Source of the DNA: Branchinecta lynchi
Lineage: Eukaryota > Arthropoda > Branchiopoda > Anostraca > Branchinectidae
Reading direction: 5' to 3'
DNA: 64,000 bases
Assembly (NCBI GenBank): GCA_023053575.1
Contig: JAKZAP010000058.1
Coordinates: forward strand, 248,001 to 312,000
Shown here: piece after piece, positions 15,486 through 64,000 of the stretch
How the letters are laid out: every line of letters begins with the position of its first letter
How positions within the stretch are numbered: the first letter of the stretch is position 1
Made by a program: the position numbers and the translations under genes
Notes under the pieces: generated by a model
What the model saw: the letters and a program-made list of their open reading frames with translations, nothing else
Database searches by the model: none
What the model was told of the DNA's origin: nothing

Positions 15486-15521
15486 GTTTCTTCAGTAGGC
15501 AGTGATTGCTCTGAGTATCAT

Positions 15522-17047: not shown

Positions 17048-17054
17048 GTATCAT

Positions 17055-29124: not shown

Positions 29125-29168
29125 CAGCGATATTTCGGCCTTTCTTGGCAAGGGTCCTCGTCAGGCTG
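29125..29168 (-). ncRNA. Hammerhead-ribozyme-like motif a
   Basis: The minus strand reads CAGC-CTGACGA, a stem II (GGACCCTT..AAAGGCC, one mismatch), GAAA, TATC, GCTG. Stem I CAGC/GCTG pairs. CTGANGA and GAAA are the invariant hammerhead core, in type I order. Stem III is the self-complementary ATAT, which would need a dimer. Activity is not shown. Confidence 0.6.
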
Positions 29169-29364
29169 TCAATCCTCTGGTTCAACTTCGGAGAAGGAAA
29201 CAAACCTGTAATCATTTACCTGTCAACAGATTACAGGTTTTCTTTCCTTCCCCGAAGTTGAACCAGAGGATTCAACTTCGGGGAAGGAAACAAACCTGTA
29301 ATCATTTACCTGTCATCAGATTACAGGCTTTCTTTCCTTCCCCGAAGTTGAACCAGAGGATTGA

Positions 29365-29408
29365 CAGCCTGACGAGGACCCTTGCCAAGAAGGGCCGAAA
29401 TATCGATG
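29365..29408 (+). ncRNA. Hammerhead-ribozyme-like motif b
   Basis: CTGACGA at 29369, stem II GG-CCCTT/AAGGG-CC, GAAA at 29397-29400, then TATC. Core intact; stem I weak (mismatch at the second pair). Inverted partner of motif a. Confidence 0.55.
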
Positions 29409-29983
29409 ACGAAGAATCGTAGCTGACGTAGCCGTTGTAAACATTGTTTGAATAAAAGAGAATCTTTTGCCATATGAGCTTCCAAGTCTTGTTCTATTTT
29501 CCAGCAAAATATCATGCCATAGGCGGATCCGACCAATCACGTTACAGAGATGAGTAGTGACCACGCTTACTACGCTCCCGAGCGTGGTAAGCAAATAGTT
29601 ACTGTTAATTACTATTTTGAGAAGGTTGGAACGGTCAGCGTAGTAACTATTCTTGAGGATGGAACGGAAACAGTAACTAATCGTTACTGTTGTTAGAAGG
29701 GTGGAACACGATGATAACCAATAAAAATTGTATCTGACTGGTTTGTAATTTTCATGCCTCTGACTGAACCAATCACAAACGACGCAAGGAACTCTTAATT
29801 GTGAAGAAGTACTCCCAATATCGAAAGCGGGTACCTCTTGCCATTTGGAAGGAAATTATAGAACACTATCAGGTTTCCGTTCTCCTTGAAGAAAACTCTA
29901 CTCTTACTGCAATATGGATATATGTCTCAAAACCACTATATATTTTTTAGTGCAAAACGGATACATCAGATGAATTGTTTAGA

Positions 29984-32848: not shown

Positions 32849-34078
32849 CAAACGCTGGGGCATGCTGACAGGGGTGACCATAGTTATCACACACAGTTGT
32901 AGCCCTTCTTCCGCATAGGGGTATCAGTATACAGTACTTTGGTAAAACAATTTGGTATATATTTTTTTACCTCGAAATGTTTTGCTTTTAAAGGGAACTG
33001 GTACCCCTCTGGGGAATAAGGGGTACACATACGTATACTGGTACCCTTCTGGGGAATAAGGAGTACAAATATGTATGACGTCCTTACTCACCCCTGCCAG
33101 TATACCCCAGCATTTGACCATGGGTATAAAAAGGGCTTTGTTTACTAGACAGGTGCAGTCCTTTTTCTTTTTTCACCATACACAATTATACTCGGTCTTC
33201 TCTCTCAACCTTCTCCTGTCACGCTGTCCCCTCCTGACGCTATTCACTTTCCAACAGCCGCCTCACCGTTCCAAATGGTCGCCTTACTGTTATCTTATAG
33301 ACCCTAAGAAGTAGGAAAAAAAAAACAGAAGTACCTGTTAAAATGGCCGTTTTTTTTTTGTAAAAACGGTCCGTTTCTGTTTTTCCGAAAAAAAACCGGA
33401 AAAACAGAAACGGTTTTCCGTTTTTTTTTATCACCGTTTCTGTTTCTGTTCCGTTTTTACCGTTTCTGTTTTTGGCTAAAACAGAAACGGTAAAAAACGG
33501 CAAATAAAAAACGGAACAGAAACAGAAGCGGTGATAAAAGAAACGAAAAACCGTTTCTGTTTTTCCGTTTTTTTCCGGAAAAACAGTAAAGGACCGTTTT
33601 TTACAAAAAAACGGCCGTTTTAACAGGTATTTCTGTTTTTTTTCCTACTTCTTTTGTGTACAAGATAATAGTAAGGTGACCCATTGGAACGGTAAGGCGG
33701 CTGTTGGAAAGTGAATAGTGTGAGGAGGGGACTCATGGAGGGTCTGACAGGAGAAGGTTGTGAGAGAAGGTCGAGTATAATTGTGGAAGGTGAAAAAAAG
33801 GACTCTGCACCTGTCTTGTAAACTAAGCTCTTTTTTTATACCCATGGTCAAATGCTGGGTATGCTGGCAGGGGTGAGTATGGAAGTCATGCGTATGTCCA
33901 CCCCTTTTTCCCCAGAAGGGTACCAGGAACCTTTAAAAGCAAATATTTTAAGGTCAAAAATTAATACCAAATTGTTTTAGTTCCCAAAGTACTGTATACT
34001 GATACCCCTATGCGGAATAAGGGGTACAATTACGCGTGAGAACCATGGCCACCACTGTCAGCATGCCCCAGCGTTTTG
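32849..34078. repeat. 1.2 kb foldback palindrome
   Basis: Two arms of about 600 bp, centre near 33475. Outer ends are AACGCTGGGGCATGCTGACAG-type and inverted CTGTCAGCATGCCCCAGCGTT. The arms include inverted GGGGAATAAGGGGTAC blocks. The core is built from repeats of ACCGTTTCTGTTTTTCCG and its complement. Apparent ORFs inside are not coding. Confidence 0.9.
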
Positions 34079-36763: not shown

Positions 36764-36958
36764 CTACTGCAAACCCTCAATGTTATGCGTCCCCCACTCT
36801 GAACTCCAAAGTGAGCTTTGGTTACTAAAACTTGGATTGGCATGAGGGGAGGTTGTATAGTGACTCGAACAGTTGGCGTAGTACTCGTTACGAAGGTTCT
36901 GGGGGTAGGCCTGGTAGCTGAAATCATTCAGCGAGGGCGCTGGGTAGGACGATGGCAT
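36764..36958 (-). CDS. T-box exon Z (C-terminal exon with stop)
   Basis: 195 bp: acceptor TTCTTGTCGTTCTAG, 64 codons and a TAG stop, phase 0, matching the end of any Y exon. It starts MPSSYPAPSLNDFSYQAYP and contains NEYYANCSSHYTT, then SSLWSSEWGTHNIEGLQ before the stop. It is Ser/Tyr/Asn-rich like C-terminal tails of Brachyury-type proteins, but I recognise no named motif. A 600 bp inverted-repeat element ends 77 bp downstream, so the 3' UTR is short or runs into the transposon. No clear AATAAA was seen. Confidence 0.75.
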   Translation of the reverse strand: MPSSYPAPSLNDFSYQAYPQNLRNEYYANCSSHYTTSPHANPSFSNQSSLWSSEWGTHNIEGLQ

Positions 36959-39900
36959 CTAGAACGACAAGAACTTATCTGGAGGAAGTAAGAACGTAGG
37001 ACAGCAGCCCCCTACTTCAGCAAATGCGCCGATCTTGCTTCGTATATGTTTAGCCGAGTGCAACCCTGAGATGGGCGAATCCGAATCCGGATTCGAATCC
37101 TAAATTCGTGCTTTTGGCTGGATTCGAACTTGTGCTTGTCAGGCTGGATTTGTACTCGAGTTCCAAACCTTTAATCTACGAATCCGCTAAAATTTCGAGC
37201 ATACATCCTTCCAGGTTTTACAGTGGGCTTAGGCAATCCAAATTTTGGTCTCCACTACCAACCATCATCAGTAATCTATCACGTTATCCGATTACCTTAG
37301 ACAGGCCCGTATTCATGAATTTATTTCGGGGGGGGGGGTCAACCCCCCCCCCCCCTTGGATACAGCATTGACCTTAGATATCAGTATTTTTGTCGCCTTA
37401 ATAACCTATGTACATAATTTGATTTTTTTTTTAAGGTCGGATTCGAATCCTTAGCATGAAATGGTCGATTCGGATTCGTACCTAGCCCTGGATCGGGTTC
37501 GAATCCTTTCATGATCGGATTCGCCCATCTCAGGTGCATCCCCGACTGCTATCGCGTACCATCTGTATTTGGTAGCATTCCACCGAGTTATAGTCGGTTA
37601 CGATCGTTATGACGTTGTTATTATACTGATACCACCATCTAACATTATGCGATAAGTAGCTACTCTTATCATTTTCGTTCCACAAGGTCGTTACAATTTG
37701 CAGTAGATAGTCGGGAGCAGAACAAAGTAACACTAGGAAGTAGCGCCAAGACCTATACTTTTCATTCTTCACAATCGGGCCATACTTGTAGCGACGCCCA
37801 CTACGCTTTTGGCGATAAAAACGAGAGGAAATTGTGATTATAGAAATTTCCAGTAAAGCTAAGTTGGCGGTCTGCACACATCGAAGAAACAGGGGATGTT
37901 GTACCTTTTGTTTGCTTTGTTCAGGAGTGTAAATTATTTGAGCCAGCGCTGGTGAACGACTGATTGAATTTCAGTAGGGACGTTCTCTATCACTAGTGGC
38001 GTTACTGTCGCTGCTACTAATAATAATAACAACGTTTATTTCCTGAATAGCTCATATAATTACTCGCTAGCGTCGGATCGTCACACAATTAGTAACACGG
38101 CTAAAACTTAAAAGTTTGTGTCACTTTTTTCATGTCTCGGCGCTACTCCCTCGTGTTATTTTGCTCCCTTAGTGATAATAACTACCGGTTCAGATGGAAT
38201 TCGTTGTCGGTATGAAAAATGTCGTTTTAATTTTTTCACATTACCGTTTTCTTTGGCATGTTGTGTAAACCTCTTTTCACGAATGAACTAGATACGAAAA
38301 CGTTAAAAGTCGAACTACATATTTGCAACAACAGCTACAGCAAAGTACAAATATGGATTTTTGCGCGACAGGACCACTGTTTTAATAGTTGGAAGCTAAT
38401 TGTAAAGTGCCATCTATGTATGATTATTAATTTCCGTGACATGGGGATGTGAACTGGTTAGATGAATTTGCCTTCGGGCAGGATCACTGTTCCTATGGCC
38501 GGCTTCTACCAGACTATTTTATTGGTTTGCGAACTATGTTCACAAGCCCCTCGGTAGCTCAGTTGGTAGAGCGACTACCTTGTAAGCAGAGGGTCCTGGG
38601 TTCAAATCCCGGCTGAGGAGCATTTTTGTCTATCAGTTCACTACTTATGAAAAATAAATAAATGACATAGGCAAGGCCGTATCCATTGGGGGGGGGGTCA
38701 ACCCACCCCACCCCCCGAAACATACAAAAATAACCATTTGTATTGGCTTTTCCCTCTGATCTATGTGTTTTTTGTACTTTTTTGTCGGACCAACTGGCAA
38801 CCCCCCCCCCCCCCCCTGCCGAAATAAATTCCTGGATACGCTCATGGACATAGGACAAAACGTGTTGATGTTCGCTCGCAATTTCAACAGAGCGCTTGTT
38901 TTAACAAAAAAACAACCTGCTAAATTGCGCTGGCTCTTGTGACACGTGCAGTCTCTTGTCTGTCCACTGATAATGTCTTTGACATAAGTGTCAGTGAAAG
39001 ATCTTCTAGTAGGGAAGTTGTCTACGTAGAACATGCTGACTATACCCTGAGACTGGAGTTTAAGACTTTTGAACGAGAGTAGCCTACTGAACGTTTCAAC
39101 ACTTCTTTCATGGTAACTTATACCAGCTAGCTATGCGAAGTATAGTAGCCTACTATCGACATAGGACAAACAACAAATAATCAAAACCTCCGTCTCCCTG
39201 TGTCTGTAAAATGACTATGCGGAATCGAATATTTCCCCATACCCTGTCGGCTACAAACGAGTGGAGGTTAAAAACTTAGTGCAATATCACGTTTCATTAC
39301 CTCTACAAATAGCTAAATCGCTGGTGAGGAAAAGTAGCAGTAAAAGCTGATTGGTTATATGGACACGCTACAGGGCGGGTCAGCGCGCGGAGTACGCCTC
39401 CTGCCAGCCACCTTCACTTTTCTTGTGCGATAAGCAATGGCGAAGACAGAAGAGTAGTAAACGGGTATCAACATTAGTTGCGTTTTCGATCAAAGTTTGA
39501 AGTTACCTTCAACCTCAAAGGTCTCTGCTTAAAAACCGTTTTTGGTCGCCAGTCACAGTTCCTTCGTCCTTCAAACTCTGACCGTCGAACTTCCTGCGCT
39601 AGCAAGTTCGAAGTTTGCTTGAATCGTCGAAGAAACGTCGACCTGGCAAGGATAGCCGGAGTTGTAAAAACACTAATTAAGCAAACGGTGAACTTCGACG
39701 GTGTTCAAAAACGGAAATTAAGCAACCGGCTAAGCGAACGGCTAACAAAACTTCGATCAAAAACGCAACTATTAGCTCAAGCCAGAGTAGATACCACTAG
39801 CAAAGACAATAATAGTGGGAAAGACCGGTGACTGCGCCAAAATCAGGTCTCTGAAAATCGATTGGAACGCCTCCTAGCGTTTGTCCAATTTCCAGCGGTA

Positions 39901-42900
39901 GATGACTAATATAACCAAAGCAAGACGGCGTGACTAGGCAATGTCTGTCAACATTAACTGATTCGAAATCGTGAATTCAACATTTTTTTTCCATAAAAAA
40001 GCGATTTATTCTTTTCCTACTTGTTTTTTGTTCCAATTAAAGAGGAAATCTGAATGGAGAGAGAATGCTCATTATAAACAGAACATGCTCTGATGATGAT
40101 TCTGAGGAAAGCGATGGAAGAAATTGTCAACAGAGCGATTTTTTAACGAAAGAACATCCGCTAGAAGGCGCTGATTGTTGTGACTCATGGGGCTTACGGG
40201 AGTTTCCACTTTTACTGTCTTTGACCACTAGGTCCGCTCAGTTTTGTCCGTGCATTCAAAGTCGCTGCATTCGGACAGAAGTTCTATCTGATTATTTATT
40301 CTTGATAAGACTTCGAGCATTCTGGGTATGTTGTACCAAACGTCACCATTAGCCTACCTGTATATGTTGCTCCTGGTGAAAACCCCCTTGGCCCTGTTGT
40401 ATCACCGCCTGCTGGAGAAACTGATTCTGATTCAAATAATAGCTGGGTTGTGACGTAGCATCATACCCCACTGGACTGGGGTAAGGGTGGGGGGCCCAAG
40501 TTTGGATCCCTATTGCATGATTCGGTGGCCCGCCTGGCAAGTGGCCACGGTCATGGCCGAGCAGCCAGTTCGGTGATGGAAGAGAGGAAGGGTAGCTTGG
40601 AGACGAGATCGAAGGATGTTGTGACGGAGTTGAGAGGTCTTCTAAAAAGATAAAACTATGTCAGGATACAGCTGCAGCTTACAGAATGCAACTTACGAAG
40701 AAATTTCTCGTGGTTAACACGATCGAAAGCAGGCTTTGCGTCGATAAAACAAATAAATACAGGGGTTGAACAAGCCCAAACATATTCAACCACGATTTTA
40801 GTACGAATACATAAAATTGAGCAGACAACTTTGACTGGAAGCCAAATTGGCAAGCTATGACCGTATTGAGGTTCGACAACCCCATTCAGTCATTTTTACA
40901 AAACCTTAGATACCACAGCCGCCAACGCAATAGGTCTATAGTCAGAAATACTACTGAAATCCAGCACCAAGTAATTTGGGGATACGGACTAGACAAAACT
41001 CAGACTACACGGGACAAAACTATGAGCCAGAAAACCATTAAACAGAGCGTTAGCATGTCCACTAGCGACAGTCCTGCACGCTTCAGGTGATTTGAAGAGG
41101 CTGTGAAAATCCAGTTACCCATCACTCATTCCCTTGAAGGGTCTTGAAGACCCCGTATAATGCTTTACATCGTTGCTCCGCTGGTAATGATTAATATTGC
41201 GGTGGCGTTGATTCATCACAACTAGAATCGCAACTAGATTGGGTTCTTGGTTCTATTCTTGCGTTGCGTACTTACCCTGCTCAAGTTGTCCGTACGATGA
41301 ATCGTGTCCGGGAACCCGATCATTGGATTTTCGGGAACCTTTTGAAAATGGGTTGTGTTTCATTTTTAGAGATGTTACCTGAAAAAAAAAGGATAGTTGC
41401 AAATCCAGAAGTCGGGTCCGAAGACAGCAAACGGCGTTGATTGCGATTCTCCCTGGAGAAGGAAAGGGATTTATCTTTATATTGTTTATCATTTTGATAT
41501 TTCACATTTTTATATTCCCGTCACGTAGAAAGGAATTCCGGTCGACTTGAAAGGACTCCGTTTGTGAAGACCAACAGAAAAAAGAACAAAGGTTTCGATG
41601 GGATCCCAAAAACTTAATATGTGATCTAGACAATTGGGTCTTGTCTTTGCCAGATCCAGTTTTCGCCAGACTCCTTGAATATTTTTACTATTAAAATTTA
41701 GAAACAGATTAAGGCCAGATAGCTAATCACCTGAGAAAACAAAGTTCAGACATGTGTGTATAAGTCATGTCCATGTTGACGAAACTAATCGAAACTTCCT
41801 GCCTTACTTCTGCCAAATTTAGGTTTCAGTCGGATTCCACAAAAAAAAATTAATTTTTGCAGTAAAAATGCTTGAGGAGTCTGGAGAAGACAGGACCCAA
41901 TTGTCTGGATTTGAAATTAAATTTGTGGGATCCCATCGAAACCTTTGGTCTTGTTTTACCAGACTCCTGTCAAACAAGACATGCGGTCGGACCGTCACCG
42001 TTTTTTTCTTCTTTTTTTTCTGTCAAGTTCAAGTTCTGTTTATTTAAAATTAAATTCAACATAAAGAGACAATTTGGCAGAGAGAAGGCTCGAGGCCAAA
42101 TGTCAAAAATGACGCGTTGAGCCTTTCACACTAAGCTACGCAACCTCTGCGTCGTGCTTGCGTCGACGCAGCACAAAGCTTACCCAGACAAATAATTCCT
42201 GGATACGCTCATGGACATAGGACAAAACGTGCTGGATGATGATGATTTTGTAGAAGTTCGCTCGCAATTTCAACAGATTGCTTGTCTTAACAAAAAAGCA
42301 ACCTGCTAAATTGCGCTGGCTCTTGTGACTCGTGCAGTCTCCTGTCTGTCCACTGATAATGTCTTTGACATAAGTGTCAGTGAAAGATCTTCTAGTAGGG
42401 AAGTTGTCTACGTAGAACATGCTGACTATACCCTGAGACTGGAGTTTAAGACTTTTGAACGAGAGTAGCCTACTGAACGTTTCAACACTTCTTTCGTGGT
42501 AACTTATACCAGCTAGCTATGCGAAGTATAGTAGCCTACTATCGACATAGGACAAACAACAAATAATCAAAACCTCCGTCTCCCTGTGTCTGTAAAATGA
42601 CTATGCGGAGTCGAATATTTCCCCATACCCTGTCGGCTACAAACGAGTGGAGGTTAAAAACTTAGTGCAATATCACGTTTCATTACCTCTACAAATAGCT
42701 AAATCGCTGGTGAGGAAAAGTAGCAGTAAAAGCTGAAGGTTATATGGACGCGCTACAGGGCGGGTCAGCGCGCGGAGTACGCCTCCTGCCAGCCACCTTC
42801 ACCTTTCTTGTGCGATAAGCAATGGCGAAGACAGAAGAGTAGTAAACGGGTATCAACATTAGTTGCGTTTTCGATCAAAGTTTGAAGTTACCTTCAACCT

Positions 42901-45900
42901 CAAAGGTCTCTGCTTAAAAACCGTTTTCGGTCGCCAGTCACAGTTCCTTCGTCCTCCAAACTCTGACCGTCGAACTTCCTGCGCTAGCAAGTTCGAAGTT
43001 TGCTTGAATCGTCGAAGAAACGTCGACCTGGCAAGGATAGCCGGAGTCGTAAAAACACTAATTAAGCAAACGGTGAACTTCGGCGGTGTTCAAAAACGAA
43101 AATTAAGCAACCGGCTAAGCGAACGGCGAACAAAACTTCGATCAAAAACGCAACTATTAGCTCAAGCCAGAGTAGATACCACTAGCAAAGACAATAATAG
43201 TGGGAAAGACCGGTGACTGCGCCAAAATCAGGTCTCCGAAAATCGATTGGAACGCCTCCTAGCGTTTGTCCAATTTCCAGCGGTAGATGACTAATATAAC
43301 CAAAGCAAGACGGCGTGACTAGGCAATGTCTGTCAACATTAACTGATTCGAAATCGTGAATTCAACATTTTTTTTCCATAAAAAAGCGATTTATTCTTTT
43401 CTTACTTGTTTTTTGTTCCAATTAAAGAGGAAATCTGAATGGAGAGAGAATGCTCATTATAAACAAAACATGCTCTGATGATGATTCTGAGGAAAGCGAT
43501 GGAAGAAATTGTCAACAGAGCGATTTTTTAACGAAAGAACATCCGCTAGAAGGCGCTGATTGTTGTGACTCATGGGGCTTACGGGAGTTTCCACTTTTAC
43601 TGTCTTTGACCACTAGGTCCGCTCAGTTTTGTCCGTGTATTCAAAGTCGCTGCATTCGGACAGAAGTTCTATCTGATTATTTATTCTTGATAAGACTTCG
43701 AGCATTCTGGGTATGTTGTACCAAACGTCACCATTAGCCTACCTGTACATGTTGCTCCTGGTGAAAACCCCCTTGGCCCTGTTGTATCACCGCCTGCTGG
43801 AGAAACTGATTCTGATTCAAATAATAGCTGGGTTGTGACGTAGCATCATACCCCACTGGACTGGGGTAAGGGTGGGGGGCCCAAGTTTGGATCCCTGTTT
43901 CAAGACCACGGTCATGGCCGAGCAGCCAGTTCGGTGATGTAAGAGAGGAGGAAGGGTAGCTTGGAGACGAGATCGAAGGATGTTGTGACGGAGTTGAGAG
44001 GTCTTCTAAAAAGATAAAACTATGTCAGGATACAGCTGCAGCTTACAGAATGCAACTTACGAAGAAATTTCTCGTGGTTAACACGATCGAAAGCAGGCTT
44101 TGCGTCGATAAAACAAATAAATACAGGGGTTGAACAAGCCCAAACATATTCAACCACCGATTTTAGTACGAATACATAAAATTGAGCAGACAACTTTGAC
44201 TGGAAGCCAAATTGGCAAGCTATGACCGTATTGAGGTTCGACAACCCCATTCAGTCATTTTTACAAAACCTTAGATACCACAGCCGCCAACGCAATAGGT
44301 CTATAGTCAGAAATACTACTGAAATCCAGCACCAAGTAATTTGGGGATACGGACTGGACAAAACTCAGTTAGACTGCACGGGACAAAACTATGAGCCAGA
44401 AAACCATTAAACAGAGCGTTAGCATGTCCACTAGCGACAGTCCTGCACGCTTCAGGTGATTTGAAAGAGGCTGTGAAAAATCCAGTTACCCATCACTCAT
44501 TCCCTTGAAGGGTCTTGAAGACCCCGTATAATGCTTTACATCGTTGCTCCGCTGGTAATGATTAATCTATTTTCATAATATGGAATTTCCCTGTCGGATG
44601 TGCGCTTGTACCTGTTTTGTATGCTTGACGAAAACAATTTTTGAACAAGACCAAAGCTGTCGATGGGATCCCAAAAATCTAAGATTTGATCCAGACAATT
44701 CGGTCTTGTCTTCGCTAGGCTAATCATCACAGAAAACCGAGTTCAGATATTCTATCTACCTATCTATCTATACCTCTATAAGCCATATCTATTTTGACGA
44801 TACGCCTCTGCATGATCGAGCTGTCCGATCGATTCAGGATTTTTAGATTCTGTTGCTCTTTGAAATTTTGCTGTCAGGACTCCTCGGAAGGAGGTGGACA
44901 TGGTAATTAGAAAAGATGAAAGAACATCACAAGGGACAAAGGTCGTAATCATGTAGCCGCCGCTGCATGGAAACGAAATTAAATGGGGTCCCTGATCGCT
45001 CATTGGCTGCTCGTTGAAAACGAAAGTAGACAAAGGTCGTAATCATGCAGCGACCAGTGCTTGGAAACGAAATCAAATGGGTCGCTGATCATGCAGTGGA
45101 GAACATCATACATTCAGATAATCTGTATGAAACTACTTTTCGTACCTTGAACTCTCTTGGCCGGTTGAGGGTAAGGGGCTGTCCGTTGGGTATGACCATC
45201 GTTCCCTAAAGCCAGGGAAGGTCTTCCAGTGGAGGACATTGATAGTGAGACCCCTGAGGTTAGGACGACTTCGGAAGAATGGCGTGGAGAGGGGTACAGT
45301 GAGCTATCTGGAAAAGGGAGAAAATAGTAGCTCTTCCTACGCCGGCGCCATGAGTAAACACGTATCACGAGACCTTTAAGTTGGTATCCCCCCACCCACA
45401 GACGTGCGTGTGGTCCTTACAAAAGCCCTGGACGACTGCTTGTTAAATTGTGTTATGACTCTCTTCAGCATCTTTAACATTTGCAATTTTCTCCGAAACC
45501 GAGCATCTAATATACGTGTAGCGTTTACCCGAGCGGTTGGTACATATTAGAATACACCTGTATTTTGATCTTAATCCTTGAAGGGTTGGTTCGTAACTGT
45601 GGAGAGGGAAGTTCGGACGGTAGGTCCTGGGCCCTACATTCAATCAACAGTGTTTAGAAAACACAATTACTTTCTAATATTATAGTTCTGCATACATCGA
45701 ATACATCTGTTTATCCAACGATCCTTAACCACTACTGTCTTAAGACTAACTTAAAGCTGCTTCTCTAGATACAATTTATTTGGTCCCTATAGACTTGATT
45801 TTTTTCACTTGCTTAATCGTTTCACTTTGTTTAATCGTTTTCACTCTTGAGCATGAACAGGTGTGAGAAAATAAGTGACGGAAATGCCACTGAGGGAAAA

Positions 45901-48900
45901 GGTTACAAAGTTTTGGAATTAAATATTTCGTGTCGTTTGTGAGCCCGGAGGCCCCTATTTCGAACAGTCCATTACAATCCTTCTGACAAAACCACGCAGA
46001 TTTTTCCACTTGCCGTGTTTTGCTACCATCAATGTGTATCACGCTGACGGTTGTCTGCGAGAAGATTTTCCATCAGAAAAACAGGGTATGTAAATTGCTT
46101 CCCTGTTTTCGCTACAAGTCAACGGGTCTCGAAAAAGGCTTAAAACAGTCAAAACCATGGGTTATTTGTTGAACGTACAGCCTAGTTTTAAAGTATTCAA
46201 ATATTTCAATATATTGCAAGTTGAAGAGTAAATAGTGCGAAGAGTCGTTTAAACAAAACAGGACTGGAACTCAATCTGCATCTACTGTGCTTGTTTTAAA
46301 ACAATTAACATGGGTCATTCTGGTAACGTCATTTGAACAAATCTTTTATTTCTCTGTGATGCTTCGGGCTTGAACTGGAAATTGCAGAATGAAGATCAGA
46401 AGAAAAACAAGAGCTGGAAGCTCATATGGCACTTGAAAGACTGGGTAAGAAGATTAAGATTAAAGTGGGAATTTGTCAATTCGTGGGTCTGTTGTGATCA
46501 CAACCCTAGAGGTAAGAATGGTCATGGGTCCTTGGAAATCACAAGAATGCATTGTTCGTAAAAACTTTATTTGTTCATTTGGCCGTGATGATGTGCACTT
46601 TAAGGGCGCTAAAAAATAATCTGTAATAAACACTCTTTTTCAGATGGATTTTTTTTTTTTTCAGATATTTTTTTTACTTCACCAAAAAAACACAACTACA
46701 TTGTACAAAAAAAACTCAACAACCACATAAAAGACAAAAGTCCTGTGGGTGGCTGTATCTTCTAACCACCTTTTAACTTGAAATTATTCAATAAATAATG
46801 CCATAAAAACTAATCTAATATATTTTCAAAGAAAGAAAAGAAAAAAGAGGTAAAGAAAGACAGAGTGAAAAAAAGAATATAGGAAAGAAAAATGATTTCC
46901 TCGTCACAACCTACCCACCGCCCCCCATCTCACCTCCCCCCACCCCATCTCTTCACTCCCCGCCTCCCTACACCCCCTTCCAACAACCCCCAAAATTCAA
47001 CCTCCTTTTTCAATTAAAAATTTCTTCAACTTTCTTTTAAACAAAATTAAGTTACCGGCCGCTCTAATACTATCCGGGAGACCATTCCACGCTGAAACAG
47101 CGATGTTTCTAATAGCGAAACCTGACCTCGTTGAGTGTCGGATTTCATGAACCAGATGGTCACCATTTCTGGTAGCATATTCATGGTAAAAAGAATTCTG
47201 GGAAAATGTATTCCAGAAGTACTCAGGGGACAACTTATTTAAACACTGAAATACAAAAACTGATAGCTGGTAGTCACGCTGTTGTCCAACATTCAGAACA
47301 CCAAGCTTTTTATAACATGCAACAGTATTTTCACACTGGTGCAATTCACCGAGCACTCTCATTGCTTTGTTTTGCACTATTTGGATCCTTTTGTAATTAC
47401 TTATGAAGTTACTGGCCCATACCGAGCACCCGTACCCAATATAAGGTTCAAGAATGGAGCTATATATAAGCTTCAGGGTTGACACTGGAAATGTATGTTT
47501 CAGTTTTCGGATTATCCCTAGACCTCTAGAAGCTTTCGCTGATATTATTTCACTGTGTTTCTTCCAGCTAAGATTGCAGTCGATATGGAAACCCAGGTAA
47601 CGGAGGTTGTAAACTTGTTGGATAACTTCAGATCCATATACAACTACAGAATCCATTGCAGATAGAGACCCAGTTCTGATAAAAATTAGGAAGCTGGTCT
47701 TCTTTGCGTTGACAGCAAGGCAACTCAGACTCACGAAGACACGGAGACACTCTGAGTGCACGATTTGCTTTTTCCACAGCTTCATGAACTGACTTGGCAA
47801 AAACAGTAATAGCTGTATCGTCAGCAAAAGAAGTTATTACACCATCACTTATATAATACCGTAAGGTATCCACATAAATCAGAAATAGAAGGGGTCCTAA
47901 AACGGAACCCTGCGGCACACCACAAGTGACGGGCATCACGGCACTGACAATATCTTTGTGAACAACACTTATAGACCGTCCGTGAAGGTAAGATTGAAAC
48001 CAATTTAAAGCATTATCTTTAATACCTAGACTTTTTAACCGCTTTAAAAGTATGCCGGAATCTACCGTATCGAAAGCTTTCTTTAAATCAATAAATACTG
48101 TTAGAGGGATAGACTTTCTTTCAAATCCATCATTTAAATTATCTAGAAGGTGATGAATCGCACGCAACGTTGAGTGGCGCTTTCTAAAACCAAACTGATT
48201 ATCACTAATAAAACCAAAAGAATCTAAATAAGAGTAAACTTGAGCATAAATTACTTTTTCAAAAATTTTAGAAAATAAAGGTAAAATTGAGATCGGTCTA
48301 TAGTTTGATAACTCATTCTTGTCACCTCCTTTGTGTAGCACAATCACTTTAGCTTGCTTTAATGCATGCGGAAAGTCACCTTTCGTCATCGATAGGTTCA
48401 CTAGATATAGGAGAACTGGCAGGAGGTAAGCACTAATTACTTTAAACGCTTTAAGGTTGAGCCCATCCATTCCAGCAGAGTTCGACTTTATCGACTTGAC
48501 AGCTTTACTAATGTCATCCATATTACACTGTACAAAATTAAATGACAGCAATTGAAGCACAAATGATGACAAACTTATTGGAATCATGAAAATGTATATT
48601 TTGCTCAAAATTATTGTTTGTATTATAAGAAGTTCGGTTCTTGTCCTTGTTCTTCCCACCATGTTTCATCCCAATCGCTCCACTTTAAGCTTGTCACAAG
48701 ATTTCCGGCCACCCCCCACATTAATCGGATCCGGTCCAAACTTAAAACGGGACATCCGAGACACGAGGTCTTTCCAGATATAAAGTTTCTTTAAGATCCG
48801 ACCACTCGTTCAAAAGTTATACATACCTGAACATTCTAGATTACCCCTTCCTCCGCTCCCCCACGATGGTTGAGTCGGAGAACTGACTATTTCTAAGCCA

Positions 48901-51900
48901 ATCATGTCAAGTCGCTAATATTAAAGCCAAGTTTCATCCTCCTAGCACATCTGGAAATACCTTAACTCGCGGTAGCCTGAATTCCGGACTCCCTCTAATT
49001 CCCCCCACAGTGCCCCGATCCGATCCGGTTCTATCATCGACGTAGCTAGTTCTTGTGCTTGTCCTTCCCGCCAAGTTTCATCCCAATCGGTCCACTCTAA
49101 GCGTGGTCCCCCCCCCCCCGCTCACATTCATCGGATCCGGTCCAGACTTTAAAAGGGTAATCAGAGACACGAGGTCTTTCCAAATATCAAGTTTCGTTAA
49201 GATCCGATCACCCGTTCCAATGTTATGCATTCCTCAAGATTCCGGATTCCCCCTCCATCCACTCCCCCACGGTGGCAGGATCGGGATCTCGACTATTTCC
49301 AGGTTAATATGGTCGGATCCCTGACCTGCTAGCCAAGTTTCATTGTCCTAGCCCAACTGGAAGTAACTTAACTCCGTATCAGCGGAATTTTGGAACCCCA
49401 TTCCAACTCCCCCCACAGTGCACGAATCCGTTCCGGTTTTGTCAATGATGCACCCAGGGCTTGTGCCTGTTCCTCCTACCAAGTCTCATCCCGATCGCTC
49501 CACTCAAAGCGTGTCACATGTTTGACGGTGCAAAACGGATAAATCAGCTACATTTCATTCGTGCTATATTTCGGCCCTTCTTGACAAGGGTCCTCTTCAG
49601 GCTCAAGCCGCTCAAGCTGGAAAATAAACTTGTGGAAAAACAATTAAAGATTCTTCTTTACATATTTGCTTTTGTGAACTTTCTTCTCTGAAAGTTGGTT
49701 GGAGTTGAAGCTGGTTTCCGGTTTCCCCCTCCGACTCCCCCCAACACATTAATCGGATTCGGTCCGGACTTGAAATGGGACATTTGAGACGTGATTCAGA
49801 CTTTCCAAATGTCAAGTTTCATTAAGATCCGATCACCCGTTGGAAAGTTATGCATGGCACTAAATTCGGGATTCCGGCCCTGACTCCCCCCACGATGGTC
49901 GAATCGAGCAAGTGCCATAAAAAGAGTGCTGCGATGTAAGGTGCGGACCATCGTCTGAAGAAAAAAATGTACTTACCCTGCTCAAGTTGTCCGTACGATG
50001 AATCGTGTCCGGGAACCCGATCATTGGATTTTCGGGAACCTTTTGAAAATGGGTTGTGTTTCATTTTTAGAGATGTTACCTGAAAAAAAAAGGATAGTTG
50101 CAAATCCAGAAGTCGGGTCCGAAGACAGCAAACGGCGTTGATTGCGATTCTCCCTGGAGAAGGAAAGGGATTTATCTTTATATTGTTTATCATTTTGATA
50201 TTTCACATTTTTATATTCCCGTCACGTAGAAAGGAATTCCGGTCGACTTGAAAGGACTCCGTTTGTGAAGACCAACAGAAAAAAGAACAAAGGTTTCGAT
50301 GGGATCCCAAAAACTTAATATGTGATCTAGACAATTGGGTCTTGTCTTTGCCAGATCCAGTTTTCGCCAGACTCCTTGAATATTTTTACTATTAAAATTT
50401 AGAAACAGATTAAGGCCAGATAGCTAATCACCTGAGAAAACAAAGTTCAGACATGTGTGTATAAGTCATGTCCATGTTGACGAAACTAATCGAAACTTCC
50501 TGCCTTACTTCTGCCAAATTTAGGTTTCAGTCGGATTCCACAAAAAAAAAATGAATTTTTGCAGTAAAAATGCTTGAGGAGTCTGGAGAAGACAGGACCC
50601 AATTGTCTGGATTTGAAATTAAATTTGTGGGATCCCATCGAAACCTTTGGTCTTGTTTTACCAGACTCCTGTCAAACAAGACATGCGGTCGGACCGTCAC
50701 CGTTTTTTTCTTCTTTTTTTTCTGTCAAGTTCAAGTTCTGTTTATTTAAAATTAAATTCAACATAAAGAGCCAATTTGGCAGAGAGAAGGCTCGAGGCCA
50801 AATGTCAAAAATGACGCGTTGAGCCTTTCACACTAAGCTACGCAACCTCTGCGTCGTGCTTGCGTCGACGCAGCACAAAGCTTACCCAGACAAATAATTC
50901 CTGGATACGCTCATGGACATAGGACAAAACGTGCTGGATGATGATGATTTTGTAGAAGTTCGCTCGCAATTTCAACAGATTGCTTGTCTTAACAAAAAAG
51001 CAACCTGCTAAATTGCGCTGGCTCTTGTGACTCGTGCAGTCTCCTGTCTGTCCACTGGTAATGTCTTTGACATAAGTGTCAGTGAAAGATCTTCTAGTAG
51101 GGAAGTTGTCTACGTAGAACATGCTGACTATACCCTGAGACTGGAGTTTAAGACTTTTGAACGAGAGTAGCCTACTGAACGTTTCAACACTTCTTTCGTG
51201 GTAACTTATACCAGCTAGCTATGCGAAGTATAGTAGCCTACTATCGACATAGGACAAACAACAAATAATCAAAACCTCCGTCTCCCTGTGTCTGTAAAAT
51301 GACTATGCGGAGTCGAATATTTCCCCATACCCTGTCGGCTACAAACGAGTGGAGGTTAAAAACTTAGTGCAATATTACGTTTCATTACCTCTACAAATAG
51401 CTAAATCGCTGGTGAGGAAAAGTAGCAGTAAAAGCTGAAGGTTATGTGGACGCGCTACAGGGCGGGTCAGCGCGCGGAGTACGCCTCCTGCCAGCCACCT
51501 TCACCTTTCTTGTGCGATAAGCAATGGCGAAGACAGAAGAGTAGTAAACGGGTATCAACATTAGTTGCGTTTTCGATCAAAGTTTGAAGTTACCTTCAAC
51601 CTCAAAGGTCTCTGCTTAAAAACCGTTTTCGGTCGCCAGTCACAGTTCCTTCGTCCTTCAAACTCTGACCGTCGAACTTCCTGCGCTAGCAAGTTCGAAG
51701 TTTGCTTGAATCGTCGAAGAAACGTCGACCTGGCAAGGATAGCCGGAGTCGTAAAAACACTAATTAAGCAAACGGTGAACTTCGGCGGTGTTCAAAAACG
51801 AAAATTAAGCAACCGGCTAAGCGAACGGCGAACAAAACTTCGATCAAAAACGCAACTATTAGCTCAAGCCAGAGTAGATACCACTAGCAAAGACAATAAT

Positions 51901-54900
51901 AGTGGGAAAGACCGGTGACTGCGCCAAAATCAGGTCTCCGAAAATCGATTGGAACGCCTCCTAGCGTTTGTCCAATTTCCAGCGGTAGATGACTAATATA
52001 ACCAAAGCAAGACGGCGTGACTAGGCAATGTCTGTCAACATTAACTGATTCGAAATCGTGAATTCAACATTTTTTTTCCATAAAAAAGCGATTTATTCTT
52101 TTCTTACTTGTTTTTTGTTCCAATTAAAGAGGAAATCTGAATGGAGAGAGAATGCTCATTATAAACAAAACATGCTCTGATGATGATTCTGAGGAAAGCG
52201 ATGGAAGAAATTGTCAACAGAGCGATTTTTTAACGAAAGAACATCCGCTAGAAGGCGCTGATTGTTGTGACTCATGGGGCTTACGGGAGTTTCCACTTTT
52301 ACTGTCTTTGACCACTAGGTCCGCTCAGTTTTGTCCGTGTATTCAAAGTCGCTGCATTCGGACAGAAGTTCTATCTGATTATTTATTCTTGATAAGACTT
52401 CGAGCATTCTGGGTATGTTGTACCAAACGTCACCATTAGCCTACCTGTACATGTTGCTCCTGGTGAAAACCCCCTTGGCCCTGTTGTATCACCGCCTGCT
52501 GGAGAAACTGATTCTGATTCAAATAATAGCTGGGTTGTGACGTAGCATCATACCCCACTGGACTGGGGTAAGGGTGGGGGGCCCAAGTTTGGATCCCTGT
52601 TTCAAGACCACGGTCATGGCCGAGCAGCCAGTTCGGTGATGTAAGAGAGGAGGAAGGGTAGCTTGGAGACGAGATCGAAGGATGTTGTGACGGAGTTGAG
52701 AGGTCTTCTAAAAAGATAAAACTATGTCAGGATACAGCTGCAGCTTACAGAATGCAACTTACGAAGAAATTTCTCGTGGTTAACACGATCGAAAGCAGGC
52801 TTTGCGTCGATAAAACAAATAAATACAGGGGTTGAACAAGCCCAAACATATTCAACCACCGATTTTAGTACGAATACATAAAATTGAGCAGACAACTTTG
52901 ACTGGAAGCCAAATTGGCAAGCTATGACCGTATTGAGGTTCGACAACCCCATTCAGTCATTTTTACAAAACCTTAGATACCACAGCCGCCAACGCAATAG
53001 GTCTATAGTCAGAAATACTACTGAAATCCAGCACCAAGTAATTTGGGGATACGGACTGGACAAAACTCAGTTAGACTGCACGGGACAAAACTATGAGCCA
53101 GAAAACCATTAAACAGAGCGTTAGCATGTCCACTAGCGACAGTCCTGCACGCTTCAGGTGATTTGAAAGAGGCTGTGAAAAATCCAGTTACCCATCACTC
53201 ATTCCCTTGAAGGGTCTTGAAGACCCCGTATAATGCTTTACATCGTTGCTCCGCTGGTAATGATTAATCTATTTTCATAATATGGAATTTCCCTGTCGGA
53301 TGTGCGCTTGTACCTGTTTTGTATGCTTGACGAAAACAATTTTTGAACAAGACCAAAGCTGTCGATGGGATCCCAAAAATCTAAGATTTGATCCAGACAA
53401 TTCGGTCTTGTCTTCGCTAGGCTAATCATCACAGAAAACCGAGTTCAGATATTCTATCTACCTATCTATCTATACCTCTATAAGCCATATCTATTTTGAC
53501 GATACGCCTCTGCATGATCGAGCTGTCCGATCGATTCAGGATTTTTAGATTCTGTTGCTCTTTGAAATTTTGCTGTCAGGACTCCTCGGAAGGAGGTGGA
53601 CATGGTAATTAGAAAAGATGAAAGAACATCACAAGGGACAAAGGTCGTAATCATGTAGCCGCCGCTGCATGGAAACGAAATTAAATGGGGTCCCTGATCG
53701 CTCATTGGCTGCTCGTTGAAAACGAAAGTAGACAAAGGTCGTAATCATGCAGCGACCAGTGCTTGGAAACGAAATCAAATGGGTCGCTGATCATGCAGTG
53801 GAGAACATCATACATTCAGATAATCTGTATGAAACTACTTTTCGTACCTTGAACTCTCTTGGCCGGTTGAGGGTAAGGGGCTGTCCGTTGGGTATGACCA
53901 TCGTTCCCTAAAGCCAGGGAAGGTCTTCCAGTGGAGGACATTGATAGTGAGACCCCTGAGGTTAGGACGACTTCGGAAGAATGGCGTGGAGAGGGGTACA
54001 GTGAGCTATCTGGAAAAGGGAGAAAATAGTAGCTCTTCCTACGCCGGCGCCATGAGTAAACACGTATCACGAGACCTTTAAGTTGGTATCCCCCCACCCA
54101 CAGACGTGCGTGTGGTCCTTACAAAAGCCCTGGACGACTGCTTGTTAAATTGTGTTATGACTCTCTTCAGCATCTTTAACATTTGCAATTTTCTCCGAAA
54201 CCGAGCATCTAATATACGTGTAGCGTTTACCCGAGCGGTTGGTACATATTAGAATACACCTGTATTTTGATCTTAATCCTTGAAGGGTTGGTTCGTAACT
54301 GTGGAGAGGGAAGTTCGGACGGTAGGTCCTGGGCCCTACATTCAATCAACAGTGTTTAGAAAACACAATTACTTTCTAATATTATAGTTCTGCATACATC
54401 GAATACATCTGTTTATCCAACGATCCTTAACCACTACTGTCTTAAGACTAACTTAAAGCTGCTTCTCTAGATACAATTTATTTGGTCCCTATAGACTTGA
54501 TTTTTTTCACTTGCTTAATCGTTTCACTTTGTTTAATCGTTTTCACTCTTGAGCATGAACAGGTGTGAGAAAATAAGTGACGGAAATGCCACTGAGGGAA
54601 AAGGTTACAAAGTTTTGGAATTAAATATTTCGTGTCGTTTGTGAGCCCGGAGGCCCCTATTTCGAACAGTCCATTACAATCCTTCTGACAAAACCACGCA
54701 GATTTTTCCACTTGCCGTGTTTTGCTACCATCAATGTGTATCACGCTGACGGTTGTCTGCGAGAAGATTTTCCATCAGAAAAACAGGGTATGTAAATTGC
54801 TTCCCTGTTTTCGCTACAAGTCAACGGGTCTCGAAAAAGGCTTAAAACAGTCAAAACCATGGGTTATTTGTTGAACGTACAGCCTAGTTTTAAAGTATTC

Positions 54901-57900
54901 AAATATTTCAATATATTGCAAGTTGAAGAGTAAATAGTGCGAAGAGTCGTTTAAACAAAACAGGACTGGAACTCAATCTGCATCTACTGTGCTTGTTTTA
55001 AAACAATTAACATGGGTCATTCTGGTAACGTCATTTGAACAAATCTTTTATTTCTCTGTGATGCTTCGGGCTTGAACTGGAAATTGCAGAATGAAGATCA
55101 GAAGAAAAACAAGAGCTGGAAGCTCATATGGCACTTGAAAGACTGGGTAAGAAGATTAAGATTAAAGTGGGAATTTGTCAATTCGTGGGTCTGTTGTGAT
55201 CACAACCCTAGAGGTAAGAATGGTCATGGGTCCTTGGAAATCACAAGAATGCATTGTTCGTAAAAACTTTATTTGTTCATTTGGCCGTGATGATGTGCAC
55301 TTTAAGGGCGCTAAAAAATAATCTGTAATAAACACTCTTTTTCAGATGGATTTTTTTTTTTTTCAGATATTTTTTTTACTTCACCAAAAAAACACAACTA
55401 CATTGTACAAAAAAAACTCAACAACCACATAAAAGACAAAAGTCCTGTGGGTGGCTGTATCTTCTAACCACCTTTTAACTTGAAATTATTCAATAAATAA
55501 TGCCATAAAAACTAATCTAATATATTTTCAAAGAAAGAAAAGAAAAAAGAGGTAAAGAAAGACAGAGTGAAAAAAAGAATATAGGAAAGAAAAATGATTT
55601 CCTCGTCACAACCTACCCACCGCCCCCCATCTCACCTCCCCCCACCCCATCTCTTCACTCCCCGCCTCCCTACACCCCCTTCCAACAACCCCCAAAATTC
55701 AACCTCCTTTTTCAATTAAAAATTTCTTCAACTTTCTTTTAAACAAAATTAAGTTACCGGCCGCTCTAATACTATCCGGGAGACCATTCCACGCTGAAAC
55801 AGCGATGTTTCTAATAGCGAAACCTGACCTCGTTGAGTGTCGGATTTCATGAACCAGATGGTCACCATTTCTGGTAGCATATTCATGGTAAAAAGAATTC
55901 TGGGAAAATGTATTCCAGAAGTACTCAGGGGACAACTTATTTAAACACTGAAATACAAAAACTGATAGCTGGTAGTCACGCTGTTGTCCAACATTCAGAA
56001 CACCAAGCTTTTTATAACATGCAACAGTATTTTCACACTGGTGCAATTCACCGAGCACTCTCATTGCTTTGTTTTGCACTATTTGGATCCTTTTGTAATT
56101 ACTTATGAAGTTACTGGCCCATACCGAGCACCCGTACCCAATATAAGGTTCAAGAATGGAGCTATATATAAGCTTCAGGGTTGACACTGGAAATGTATGT
56201 TTCAGTTTTCGGATTATCCCTAGACCTCTAGAAGCTTTCGCTGATATTATTTCACTGTGTTTCTTCCAGCTAAGATTGCAGTCGATATGGAAACCCAGGT
56301 AACGGAGGTTGTAAACTTGTTGGATAACTTCAGATCCATATACAACTACAGAATCCATTGCAGATAGAGACCCAGTTCTGATAAAAATTAGGAAGCTGGT
56401 CTTCTTTGCGTTGACAGCAAGGCAACTCACACTCACGAAGACACGGAGACACTCTGAGTGCACGATTTGCTTTTTCCACAGCTTCATGAACTGACTTGGC
56501 AAAAACAGTAATAGCTGTATCGTCAGCAAAAGAAGTTATTACACCATCACTTATATAATACCGTAAGGTATCCACATAAATCAGAAATAGAAGGGGTCCT
56601 AAAACGGAACCCTGCGGCACACCACAAGTGACGGGCATCACGGCACTGACAATATCTTTGTGAACAACACTTATAGACCGTCCGTGAAGGTAAGATTGAA
56701 ACCAATTTAAAGCATTATCTTTAATACCTAGACTTTTTAACCGCTTTAAAAGTATGCCGGAATCTACCGTATCGAAAGCTTTCTTTAAATCAATAAATAC
56801 TGTTAGAGGGATAGACTTTCTTTCAAATCCATCATTTAAATTATCTAGAAGGTGATGAATCGCACGCAACGTTGAGTGGCGCTTTCTAAAACCAAACTGA
56901 TTATCACTAATAAAACCAAAAGAATCTAAATAAGAGTAAACTTGAGCATAAATTACTTTTTCAAAAATTTTAGAAAATAAAGGTAAAATTGAGATCGGTC
57001 TATAGTTTGATAACTCATTCTTGTCACCTCCTTTGTGTAGCACAATCACTTTAGCTTGCTTTAATGCATGCGGAAAGTCACCTTTCGTCATCGATAGGTT
57101 CACTAGATATAGGAGAACTGGCAGGAGGTAAGCACTAATTACTTTAAACGCTTTAAGGTTGAGCCCATCCATTCCAGCAGAGTTCGACTTTATCGACTTG
57201 ACAGCTTTACTAATGTCATCCATATTACACTGTACAAAATTAAATGACAGCAATTGAAGCACAAATGATGACAAACTTATTGGAATCATGAAAATGTATA
57301 TTTTGCTCAAAATTATTGTTTGTATTATAAGAAGTTCGGTTCTTGTCCTTGTTCTTCCCACCATGTTTCATCCCAATCGCTCCACTTTAAGCTTGTCACA
57401 AGATTTCCGGCCACCCCCCACATTAATCGGATCCGGTCCAAACTTAAAACGGGACATCCGAGACACGAGGTCTTTCCAGATATAAAGTTTCTTTAAGATC
57501 CGACCACTCGTTCAAAAGTTATACATACCTGAACATTCTAGATTACCCCTTCCTCCGCTCCCCCACGATGGTTGAGTCGGAGAACTGACTATTTCTAAGC
57601 CAATCATGTCAAGTCGCTAATATTAAAGCCAAGTTTCATCCTCCTAGCACATCTGGAAATACCTTAACTCGCGGTAGCCTGAATTCCGGACTCCCTCTAA
57701 TTCCCCCCACAGTGCCCCGATCCGATCCGGTTCTATCATCGACGTAGCTAGTTCTTGTGCTTGTCCTTCCCGCCAAGTTTCATCCCAATCGGTCCACTCT
57801 AAGCGTGGTCCCCCCCCCCCCCCGCTCACATTCATCGGATCCGGTCCAGACTTTAAAAGGGTAATCAGAGACACGAGGTCTTTCCAAATATCAAGTTTCG

Positions 57901-60900
57901 TTAAGATCCGATCACCCGTTCCAATGTTATGCATTCCTCAAGATTCCGGATTCCCCCTCCATCCACTCCTCCACGGTGGCAGGATCGGGATCTCGACTAT
58001 TTCCAGGTTAATATGGTCGATCCCTGACCTGCTAGCCAAGTTTCATTGTCCTAGCCCAACTGGAAGTAACTTAACTCCGTATCAGCGGAATTTTGGAACC
58101 CCATTCCAACTCCCCCCACAGTGCACGAATCCGTTCCGGTTTTGTCAATGATGCACCCAGGGCTTGTGCCTGTTCCTCCTACCAAGTCTCATCCCGATCG
58201 CTCCACTCAAAGCGTGTCACATGTTTGACGGTGCAAAACGGATAAATCAGCTACATTTCATTCGTGCTATATTTCGGCCCTTCTTGACAAGGGTCCTCTT
58301 CAGGCTCAAGCCGCTCAAGCTGGAAAATAAACTTGTGGAAAAACAATTAAAGATTCTTCTTTACATATTTGCTTTTGTGAACTTTCTTCTCTGAAAGTTG
58401 GTTGGAGTTGAAGCTGGTTTCCGGTTTCCCCCTCCGACTCCCCCCAACACATTAATCGGATTCGGTCCGGACTTGAAATGGGACATTTGAGACGTGATTT
58501 AGACTTTCCAAATGTCAAGTTTCATTAAGATCCGATCACCCGTTGGAAAGTTATGCATGGCACTAAATTCGGGATTCCGGCCCTGCCTCCCCCCACGATG
58601 GTCGAATCGAGCAAGTGCCATAAAAAGAGTGCTGCGATGTAAGGTGCGGACCATCGTCTGAAGAAAAAAATGTACTTACCCTGCTCAAGTTGTCCGTCCG
58701 ATGAATCGTGTCCGGGAACCCGATCATTGGATTTTCGGGAACCTTTTGAAAATGGGTTGTGTTTCATTTTTAGAGATGTTACCTGAAAAAAAAAGGATAG
58801 TTGCAAATTCAGAAGTCGGGTCCGAAGACAGCAAACGTCGTTGATTGCGATTCTCCCTGGAGAAGGAAAGGGACAATTGGATCTTGTCTTTGCCAGATCC
58901 AGTTTTCGCCAGACTCCTTGAATATTTTTACTATTAAAATTTAGAAACAGATTAAGGCCAGATAGCTAATCACCTGAGAAAACAAAGTTCAGACATGTGT
59001 GTATAAGTCATGTCCATGTTGACGAAACTAATCGAAACTTCCTGCCTTACTTCTGCCAAATTTAGGTTTCAGTCGGATTCCACAAAAAAAAAATTTTGCA
59101 GTAAAAATGCTTGAGGAGTCTGGAGAAGACAGGACCCAATTGTCTGGATTTGAAATTAAATTTGTGGGATCCCATCGAAACCTTTGGTCTTGTTTTACCA
59201 GACTCCTGTCAAACAAGACATGCGGTCGGACCGTCACCGTTTTTTTTCTTCTTTTTTTCTGTCAAGTTCAAGTTCTGTTTATTTAAAATTAAATTCAACA
59301 TAAAGAGCCAATTTGGCAGAGAGAAGGCTCGAGGCCAAATGTCAAAAATGACGCGTTGAGCCTTTCACACTAAGCTACGCAACCTTTGCGTCGTGCTTGC
59401 GTCGACGCAGCAAAAAGCTTACCCAGACAAATAAAACGCAACGCAAGAATAGAACCAAGAACCCAATCTAGTTGTGATTCTAGTTGTGATGAATCAACGC
59501 CACCGCAATACAGTGTCAGGAGTTTCATAACAGACAACACAAGGATGCGCGGTTTCAACAGACATCACGCAACAGATAACACTTTAGATCTGTGGTTGCA
59601 ACAAACGTTCTACATGAAATGTTATGCATAGCAAGCATTGCCAGGAAAAGACGAACAAGACCAAAGTTGTCGATGGGATCTCAAAAATCTAAGATTTGGT
59701 CCAGACAATTCGGTCTTGTCTTCGCCAGGCTAATCAACAGAGAAAACCGAGTTCAGATATTCTATCTACCAATCTATACCTCTATAAGCCATATCTGTTT
59801 TGACGCTATTGACCGAAAATTCCTGCTTTACTACTGCCAAATTTGCGGTTTCGCCCGAATTCCGAGCGAACTACTAGTCCAGCAAAATAAGAAAAATTCA
59901 GAAACGAAGCCGGCGTATCTCCTTATCCCTATAAAGAAATCTAATCAACTTTAAATAAAATTTTGACTTGAAAAAAATGCGGGTACAACCGGATTCCGGA
60001 CTAATTATATGTCCGGGTAAAAAATGATCATTATATACAGACTCAGCGTCTCTTCTTACCCCTAAATATATCATCTAATCAACTTCAGATAAAGCTTCTA
60101 CTTTTAACATATTTTCCGGTTTTGGCCGGATTACAGGCGAACTAGATGTCCGGCGAGAAAAAGGTTTCCACCATCGGGTTCAGCATATGTCTTCTTACCC
60201 ATAAATCAAACATTTAATCAACTTCAAATGAAACTGTTACTTTTAACCAACTTTCCGGTTTTGGCCGGATTCCGGACGAACTGCTTGTCCGGCGACAAAA
60301 TGATTTTCACTATGATGCTCAGCATGTCTTCTTACTTCAAATGAAACTTCAAATGAAACTTTTACTTTTAAACAACTTTCCGGTTTTTGCCGGATTTCGG
60401 TGAGAAATGATTCTCACCATCGTGCTCAGCATTTCTTCTTACCCCATAATCGACTATCACATTAGCTGTTTAAAAATATTTTGTTTGTCCCTTAAATTGA
60501 ACCCCCCTCTCCCACCCCCAAATATAGGGCTACAGAGCCCATCTACGACCCCCCCTTCACCCAAACAATCCTCATACCAAGTTTCATCAAAATATCTCAT
60601 TCCCTTCGAGAGTTATCGTGCTTACAGACGGACGGACGGACAAATTTCGCGATGTCATAGGTATCCCTCCACTTACGTTTTGGGATCCCAAAAACCGCAG
60701 AAAAAGCATCTGCTGAATTTTCGATATCATGACGACAAACCAAAAAGCCAGCAGATGCTCTTTTGGCGGTCTTTCTTCTTATCCTGGCAATGCTCGTTGT
60801 GCCAAGTTTTATCTGTTGCGCGTCGTCTGTTGAAACCGCGCATCCTTGTGTTAAAACAGTTTTCTTGAAGACTGTGTATCAGCAGGATAAAAGACGGACG

Positions 60901-63510: not shown

Positions 63511-63837
63511 CTTGAAGATGAAAATGATATAAGAGTAATTGGACAATGAGCTTTTGTTCAATCGATTTACAGCAGAGGATATACAAAGAAACACAAATCA
63601 TCTAGGCTACGATAAAAACAAATATAGCTGCGTTAATTCTAACGGAAGTTCTCGTTGGTGGTCTCCGGTTATTCTGATTAGGCGTTTTTGCATCCACCGG
63701 TGACTATTCACCAGTATTATAACCCGTTTTTGAACTAACCGGTGTCCGGTTTTATCTCACCGGTGCGGACAAATGTTACGTTTCCAGACTGCGTAAATCC
63801 AAGCGTATTATGAAATCCGAGAGCACTTTACGCACGT

Positions 63838-63903
63838 ATTACAACCTCGGTTACCTGGGATTCCATATTGATTGCAATCTTAGCTGGAAGAAACACAGTG
63901 TCT
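63838..63903 (+). mobile_element. Short fragment of the CR1-like LINE
   Basis: Reads YNLGYLGFHIDCNLSWKKHS in the plus frame, nearly identical to part of the RT C-terminal region of the 46.6-48.6 kb LINE. It is an isolated internal fragment upstream of T-box exon U. Confidence 0.75.
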
Positions 63904-64000
63904 AGCAATACGGAGTAAACTTACCATAACCAGAACATGCCCGGGATCCCGGCTTTACCGAGAAGTTAGCAATTTTTCGTCAAAGTTTGACGGGGTTTCC

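Follow-up and report, generated by a model that had tools for sequence, protein, structure and literature searches.

A stretch of 64,000 nucleotides from the anostracan Branchinecta lynchi (GenBank assembly GCA_023053575.1, contig JAKZAP010000058.1, positions 248,001 to 312,000), here called the window, carries on its minus strand a T-box gene in which the exon for the end of the DNA-binding domain, X, is present three times. Three copies of an exon Y and two of an exon M accompany it, and the array reads W-X1-M1-Y1-X2-M2-Y2-X3-Y3-Z on the minus strand. Each of the window's 12 exons has an open frame and an AG acceptor, and the 11 non-terminal ones also have a GT donor. The exons, in window coordinates, are as follows.

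63412..63510, minus strand: exon E2, 99 bp, T-domain RMFP...QEG(R), phase 2 in and out, AG/GT sites
62366..62534, minus strand: exon E3, 169 bp, T-domain CRYIDGRW...SSM
61009..61143, minus strand: exon W, 135 bp, T-domain IMLNSHHKY...FRNPQ, phase 0-0
58680..58782, minus strand: exon X1, 103 bp, T-domain end, phase 0-1, adjoins W
53848..54009, minus strand: exon M1, 162 bp, phase 1-1
52445..52707, minus strand: exon Y1, 263 bp, phase 1-0
49977..50079, minus strand: exon X2, 103 bp, phase 0-1
45146..45307, minus strand: exon M2, 162 bp, phase 1-1
43743..44005, minus strand: exon Y2, 263 bp, phase 1-0
41276..41378, minus strand: exon X3, 103 bp, donor retained, the copied block stopping 8 bases past the exon (41268)
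40358..40641, minus strand: exon Y3, 284 bp, ancestral-length form, phase 1-0, adjoins Z, no M before it
36764..36958, minus strand: exon Z, 195 bp, last coding exon with stop, similar to the Artemia C-terminus

The N-terminal part of the T-domain was not seen in 63511-64000 and should lie past the window edge. An earlier sequence-only reading had described X as three exons of 103 bp and Y as three exons of 263, 263 and 284 bp, all with AG/GT splice sites and an open frame, in phase 0-1 for X and 1-0 for Y, and fitting W and Z by phase and frame; all of this was confirmed. Its further claim that the repeated unit is a symmetric X-Y pair held as to the in-frame 0-0 units and failed as to the pair, as two of the three copies are X-M-Y and the last alone is X-Y. 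Exon M, which that reading had missed, separates X from Y in the first two copies, as in a related Artemia protein, whose residues 243-292 align to M1 at 44% identity; copy 3 has none, and a blastn comparison of the M-side region (44601-49960) with the Y3-X3 interval (40642-41275) gave no match at E<=0.01.

The spliced protein matches the Pfam T-box model at 158.1 bits (cut-off 26), in agreement with the previous assignment of the gene to the T-box family and of X to the end of the DNA-binding domain. This query and the first protein and structure queries were made without exon M. T/Brachyury proteins rank first among the 14 solved-structure matches (top 1xbr, 186 bits), with seven T/Brachyury rows at 166.9-186 bits versus 108.1-124.2 bits for seven TBX1/3/5/21 rows. 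Among the best 120 of 871 matching proteins, the top match is the Artemia franciscana T-box transcription factor T-A-like (P0001), at 52% identity over 100% of the first query, and the runner-up spans 50% of it. When the whole array was the query, the longest alignment to P0001 had 194 of 327 positions identical (59%) and spanned the T-domain, X1, M1 and Y1, while a second spanned Y3 and Z; the Artemia protein holds the X, M, Y and Z segments once each, in the order of the window gene. By bit score the gene is closer to T than to other T-box genes, and similarity of this kind marks it as a divergent Brachyury (T) by descent.

In an alignment with the 120 listed matches, 98 T-domain columns were conserved at >=95%, and the window protein departs at 36 of them, compared with 15 for P0001, 11 for P0002, 7 for P0053 and a median of 0; this count is descriptive, as the matches were picked by similarity to the window protein and the columns were defined from those matches. 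Looked for as a mark of Brachyury membership, the conserved T-domain residues were found altered at these 36 columns. Among the altered motifs are AVTAYQN, here AVKAFRN, and NPFAKAFLD, here NPFSKGSRK; the stretch after NPF contacts the minor groove. The altered residues after NPF are common to X1, X2 and X3, so these changes are older than the multiplication.

Repeat blocks and a proposed history

Exon order, phases, copy identities and junctions are read directly from the letters of the window. The repeated DNA falls into the following blocks, given without strand.

41268..49968: 8.7-kb unit, copy A, with X3, Y2, M2 and an open reading frame (ORF) like that of a long interspersed nuclear element (LINE)
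49969..58671: 8.7-kb unit, copy B, with X2, Y1, M1 and a LINE-like ORF
38827..41195: Y block, 2.4 kb, older duplication, partner at about 42194-44566
41195..41269: 75-bp filler, inverted copy of 59436-59510 (98.7%), between Y3 block and X3 block
58672..59434: X block 1, partner X block 3 at 41268-42195

The 8.7-kb units belong to a tandem match of 8906 bp (41268-50170 versus 49969-58873) at 99.81% identity, with 13 base differences and 4 gap columns; 10 of the differences fall within the 8701-bp unit pair, and three compare X2 with X1, sites at which X2 agrees with X3. From one X exon to the next the distance is 8701 and 8703 bases, a spacing which drops to 8537-8542 past the 161-bp gap of X block 1, and the copies therefore seem to join at matching X block positions, as after unequal exchange between X blocks. 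The Y-block duplication is 97.3% identical (38863-41195 versus 42249-44566, 30 mismatches in 2308 aligned positions), and its similarity picks up again outward as far as 38827. X block 1 and X block 3 differ by 8 mismatches in 762 aligned positions, by the 161-bp gap and by a few small ones of 1-4 bp. The X3 block sits between the Y3 and Y2 blocks together with the 75-bp filler, whose source begins two bases past the end of X block 1, and microhomology of 1, 2 and 2 bp was found by eye at three junctions. Chance repeats are ruled out by the tandem match and the Y-block duplication.

Each 8.7-kb unit also contains a LINE-like reverse-transcriptase ORF, at 47628-48665 (minus strand; the copy that was scanned) and 56330-57367 (minus strand). 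Among its best 120 matches the top named protein is from the coral Oculina patagonica (40% identity over 68%), followed by two from Artemia franciscana (58% over 58% and 68% over 32%); eight entries outrank these, at up to 70% over 77%. As a pointer to an Artemia-like source this ORF is weak; the T protein is the main one and makes a branchiopod near Anostraca likely.

We propose, with a probability of about 0.7, that the gene is a fast-evolving Brachyury (T) in which two genomic rearrangements, one after the other, multiplied exons X, M and Y. The ancestral gene would have been W-X-M-Y-Z, as the Artemia protein suggests. In a first step, repair with template switching would have duplicated the 2.4-kb Y block, its junction gaining a copied X block of 0.8-0.9 kb and the 75-bp inverted piece (an insert of about 1 kb) to give X-M-Y'-X'-Y. 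The Y-block duplication, the X3 block, the inverted filler and the short junction homology all fit with such repair. In a second step, unequal exchange between the two X blocks would have duplicated 8.7 kb, giving X-M-Y'-X'-M-Y'-X'-Y. Since M is 1-1 and the introns hit by the breakpoints matched in phase, the frame would have survived. Y3 has the Artemia length and X1 keeps its place beside W, so that the outermost exons of the array look original and those in between look added. A simple tandem multiplication of an X-Y pair, as the sequence-only reading had it, was rejected: there are just two copies of M, X3 adjoins inverted filler within a copied insert at the Y-block junction, the ends of the Y block differ from those of the X block, and the later duplication was of an 8.7-kb X-M-Y unit.

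Predicted products of the array

X2 and X3, M1 and M2, and Y1 and Y2 are letter-for-letter identical pairs, X1 is one base apart from X2, and Y3 differs from Y1 and Y2. The splice flanks (20 bases before the acceptor and 8 after the donor) are the same across all X, all M and all Y copies, so that serial inclusion together with skipped forms is the default expectation. Under the path grammar (X M* Y)+, all 35 phase-obeying exon paths, joint-inclusion paths among them, were open to the Z stop and encode 25 distinct proteins, which bears out the earlier claim that one, two or three copies can be included with the frame intact. The longest predicted product within the window has 679 residues, with NPFSK at 143, 319 and 495. 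If the gene is transcribed, the main product is most likely all copies in series, plus skipped forms; the serial protein would then most likely hold three NPFSK segments, the first of which completes one T-domain. Repeated segments within one protein are in this sense possible. A search for repeated-unit proteins with the 679-residue query returned 13 proteins among 7992 scored candidates, and the single-copy Artemia protein was again best.

The sequence-only reading had also allowed that the gene might choose between copies. That a single X(-M)-Y copy is selected per transcript, as with mutually exclusive exons, strikes us as very improbable: most copies are identical, which also disfavours copy choice as the array's main purpose, and the open paths permit joint inclusion, which neither breaks the frame nor appears sterically barred, the shortest between-copy intron (X3 to Y3) being 634 bases. 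Choosing among copies would make little difference, save that Y3 differs and that copy 3 is without M.

At both indels of exon Y, Y3 has the length of the Artemia segment, HLPGGPPNHAIGIQTW beside HWPGTPPTPEGGIHTW (by eye), and relative to Y3 both Y1 and Y2 show a 24-base loss and a 3-base gain (also by eye). Both exon Y indels are multiples of three, compared with none of the six found elsewhere in the Y block (1, 1, 4, 1 and 1 bases, plus 19 at the block edge), a weak indication that the copies have been under reading-frame constraint. Beyond the indels and three mismatches beside the 24-base gap, exon Y has two base changes; both alter the protein and carry no sign of constraint.

Weighing the account

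The triplicated feature is real in the sequence and probably real in the animal's DNA. We consider it unlikely that the younger 8.7-kb duplication is an assembly error, in which haplotypes or one repeat path were laid end to end and the true gene has X-M-Y-X-Y or fewer. False exon gains of a similar sort are documented, and the false duplications in that account were mostly separated by gaps and at half read depth (PMC9516828). The window holds no N within its 64,000 bases. The inverted filler and microhomology junctions are unlikely to be an assembler's invention, and X block 1 is set apart from X block 3 by the 161-bp gap and 8 mismatches; the filler argues for real DNA at the older step only, and the younger event, which is without such a signature, could be an error.

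Several observations weigh against our proposal. The 99.8% identity of the 8.7-kb copies could be a haplotype difference, and the 10 base differences are unevenly spread: two neighbours lie 4772 bp apart (P about 0.003, 20,000 random placements), leaving 42956-47728 versus 51658-56430 free of differences while the rest gather towards both unit ends. This stretch may reflect exchange between the copies or an assembly artefact. At site 42069 in the X block, X2 has the X1 base and X3 alone differs; a private change in X3 can explain this, yet the exchange point is then not tightly fixed. By our estimate, perhaps one in five to nine random events would give matching phases, and the younger copies, with 10 base differences in 8701 bp, are too alike for intact frames to indicate use. 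The altered T-domain columns suggest that the gene may be under weak constraint. Lastly, the statement that T-box proteins have a single such segment, counted as NPF, then A/S/G, then K, held for 129 of 131 T-box matches; the two entries with a second copy of the T-domain end, P0074 (Marmota monax) and P0076 (Chelonia mydas), are both single-member clusters, perhaps gene-model or assembly products, and warn of spurious duplications.

A different question is what the gene does. It may be a decaying or specialised Brachyury paralogue, with another, conserved Brachyury active and the array neutral under relaxed constraint, a reading that we put somewhat short of an even chance and that is compatible with the two-step account, which covers the origin of the array only. 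The 36 of 98 changed columns, where P0001 has 15, P0002 has 11 and the 120 matches have a median of 0, and the altered AVKAFRN and NPFSKGSRK motifs speak for a paralogue. The 12 open exons with intact splice sites, the still recognisably Artemia-like M, Y and Z, and the frame kept by both exon Y indels speak against it. That the living animal uses a Brachyury with one DNA-binding domain plus two extra copies of its DNA-contacting end and of the Y part of the tail, in several lengths through skipping and with copy number still varying between individuals through X block recombination, seems to us doubtful, though not far-fetched.

Brachyury is a strongly conserved regulator of embryonic development. 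If expressed, the window gene would be a natural experiment on what share of the T-domain is required and on whether additional copies of the domain's end have an effect, a value that comes from the combination of 36 altered columns in 98 with a triplicated last exon of the DNA-binding domain. The locus also illustrates how an exon can reach a new place with the frame intact, carried in an insert copied into the junction of a duplication.

Surrounding DNA and known systems

A threonine transfer RNA (tRNA-Thr, anticodon TGT) at 38548-38621 (plus strand) lies in the gene's last intron, on the opposite strand, with the Y block beginning about 200 bases away; an Rfam scan found this tRNA alone. 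A Pfam scan of five other ORFs found one reverse transcriptase, LINE-like, at 21162-21650 (plus strand). Stretches that match their own reverse complement lie at 33038-33926 (83%) and 29077-29456 (90%) and are perhaps foldback elements. A cluster of repeats, some direct and some inverted, each about 0.4-1.1 kb long and 93-97% identical, occupies 15506-20655 and shows further local rearrangement, and 5443-7518 matches itself at a shift of about 430-440 bases (87% identity), an older tandem repeat.

In the open-licence literature we found no repeated T-box exon in the titles and abstract openings of the matches listed and no paper joining Brachyury, exon duplication and the T-box. A close published parallel is dmrt1 of Solea senegalensis, a transcription-factor gene in which an internal duplication of more than 10 kb repeats part of the DNA-binding domain (exons II-III) in near-identical copies; its complementary DNAs hold the duplicated exons in series, with other splice forms too (PMC7605655). 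It differs in having a DM domain rather than a T-box, two copies rather than three, a short interspersed nuclear element proposed as the cause, and demonstrated transcripts, those of the window gene being predicted. Partial duplications of ATP7A likewise give head-to-tail exons in mRNA, with small amounts of normal transcript through skipping; these are disease alleles, with the frame broken in all 11 characterised, unlike the intact frame here (PMC3240829). Artemia franciscana P0001 shares the order T-domain, X, M, Y, Z and 52% identity over the whole first query, and differs in its single copy of each segment and in its 15 rather than 36 departures at conserved columns.

Duplicated exons occur in about 10% of animal genes, according to an earlier study as cited in PMC9013439. 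The window gene has homologous exons within one gene, on the same strand and in compatible phases, and adds to this known class of tandem exon duplication. It resembles such duplications generally in its whole exons repeated in tandem with compatible phases, and departs from the usual ones in that its unit comprises three exons, that it arose in two separate events and that a copied insert brought in one of the exons.

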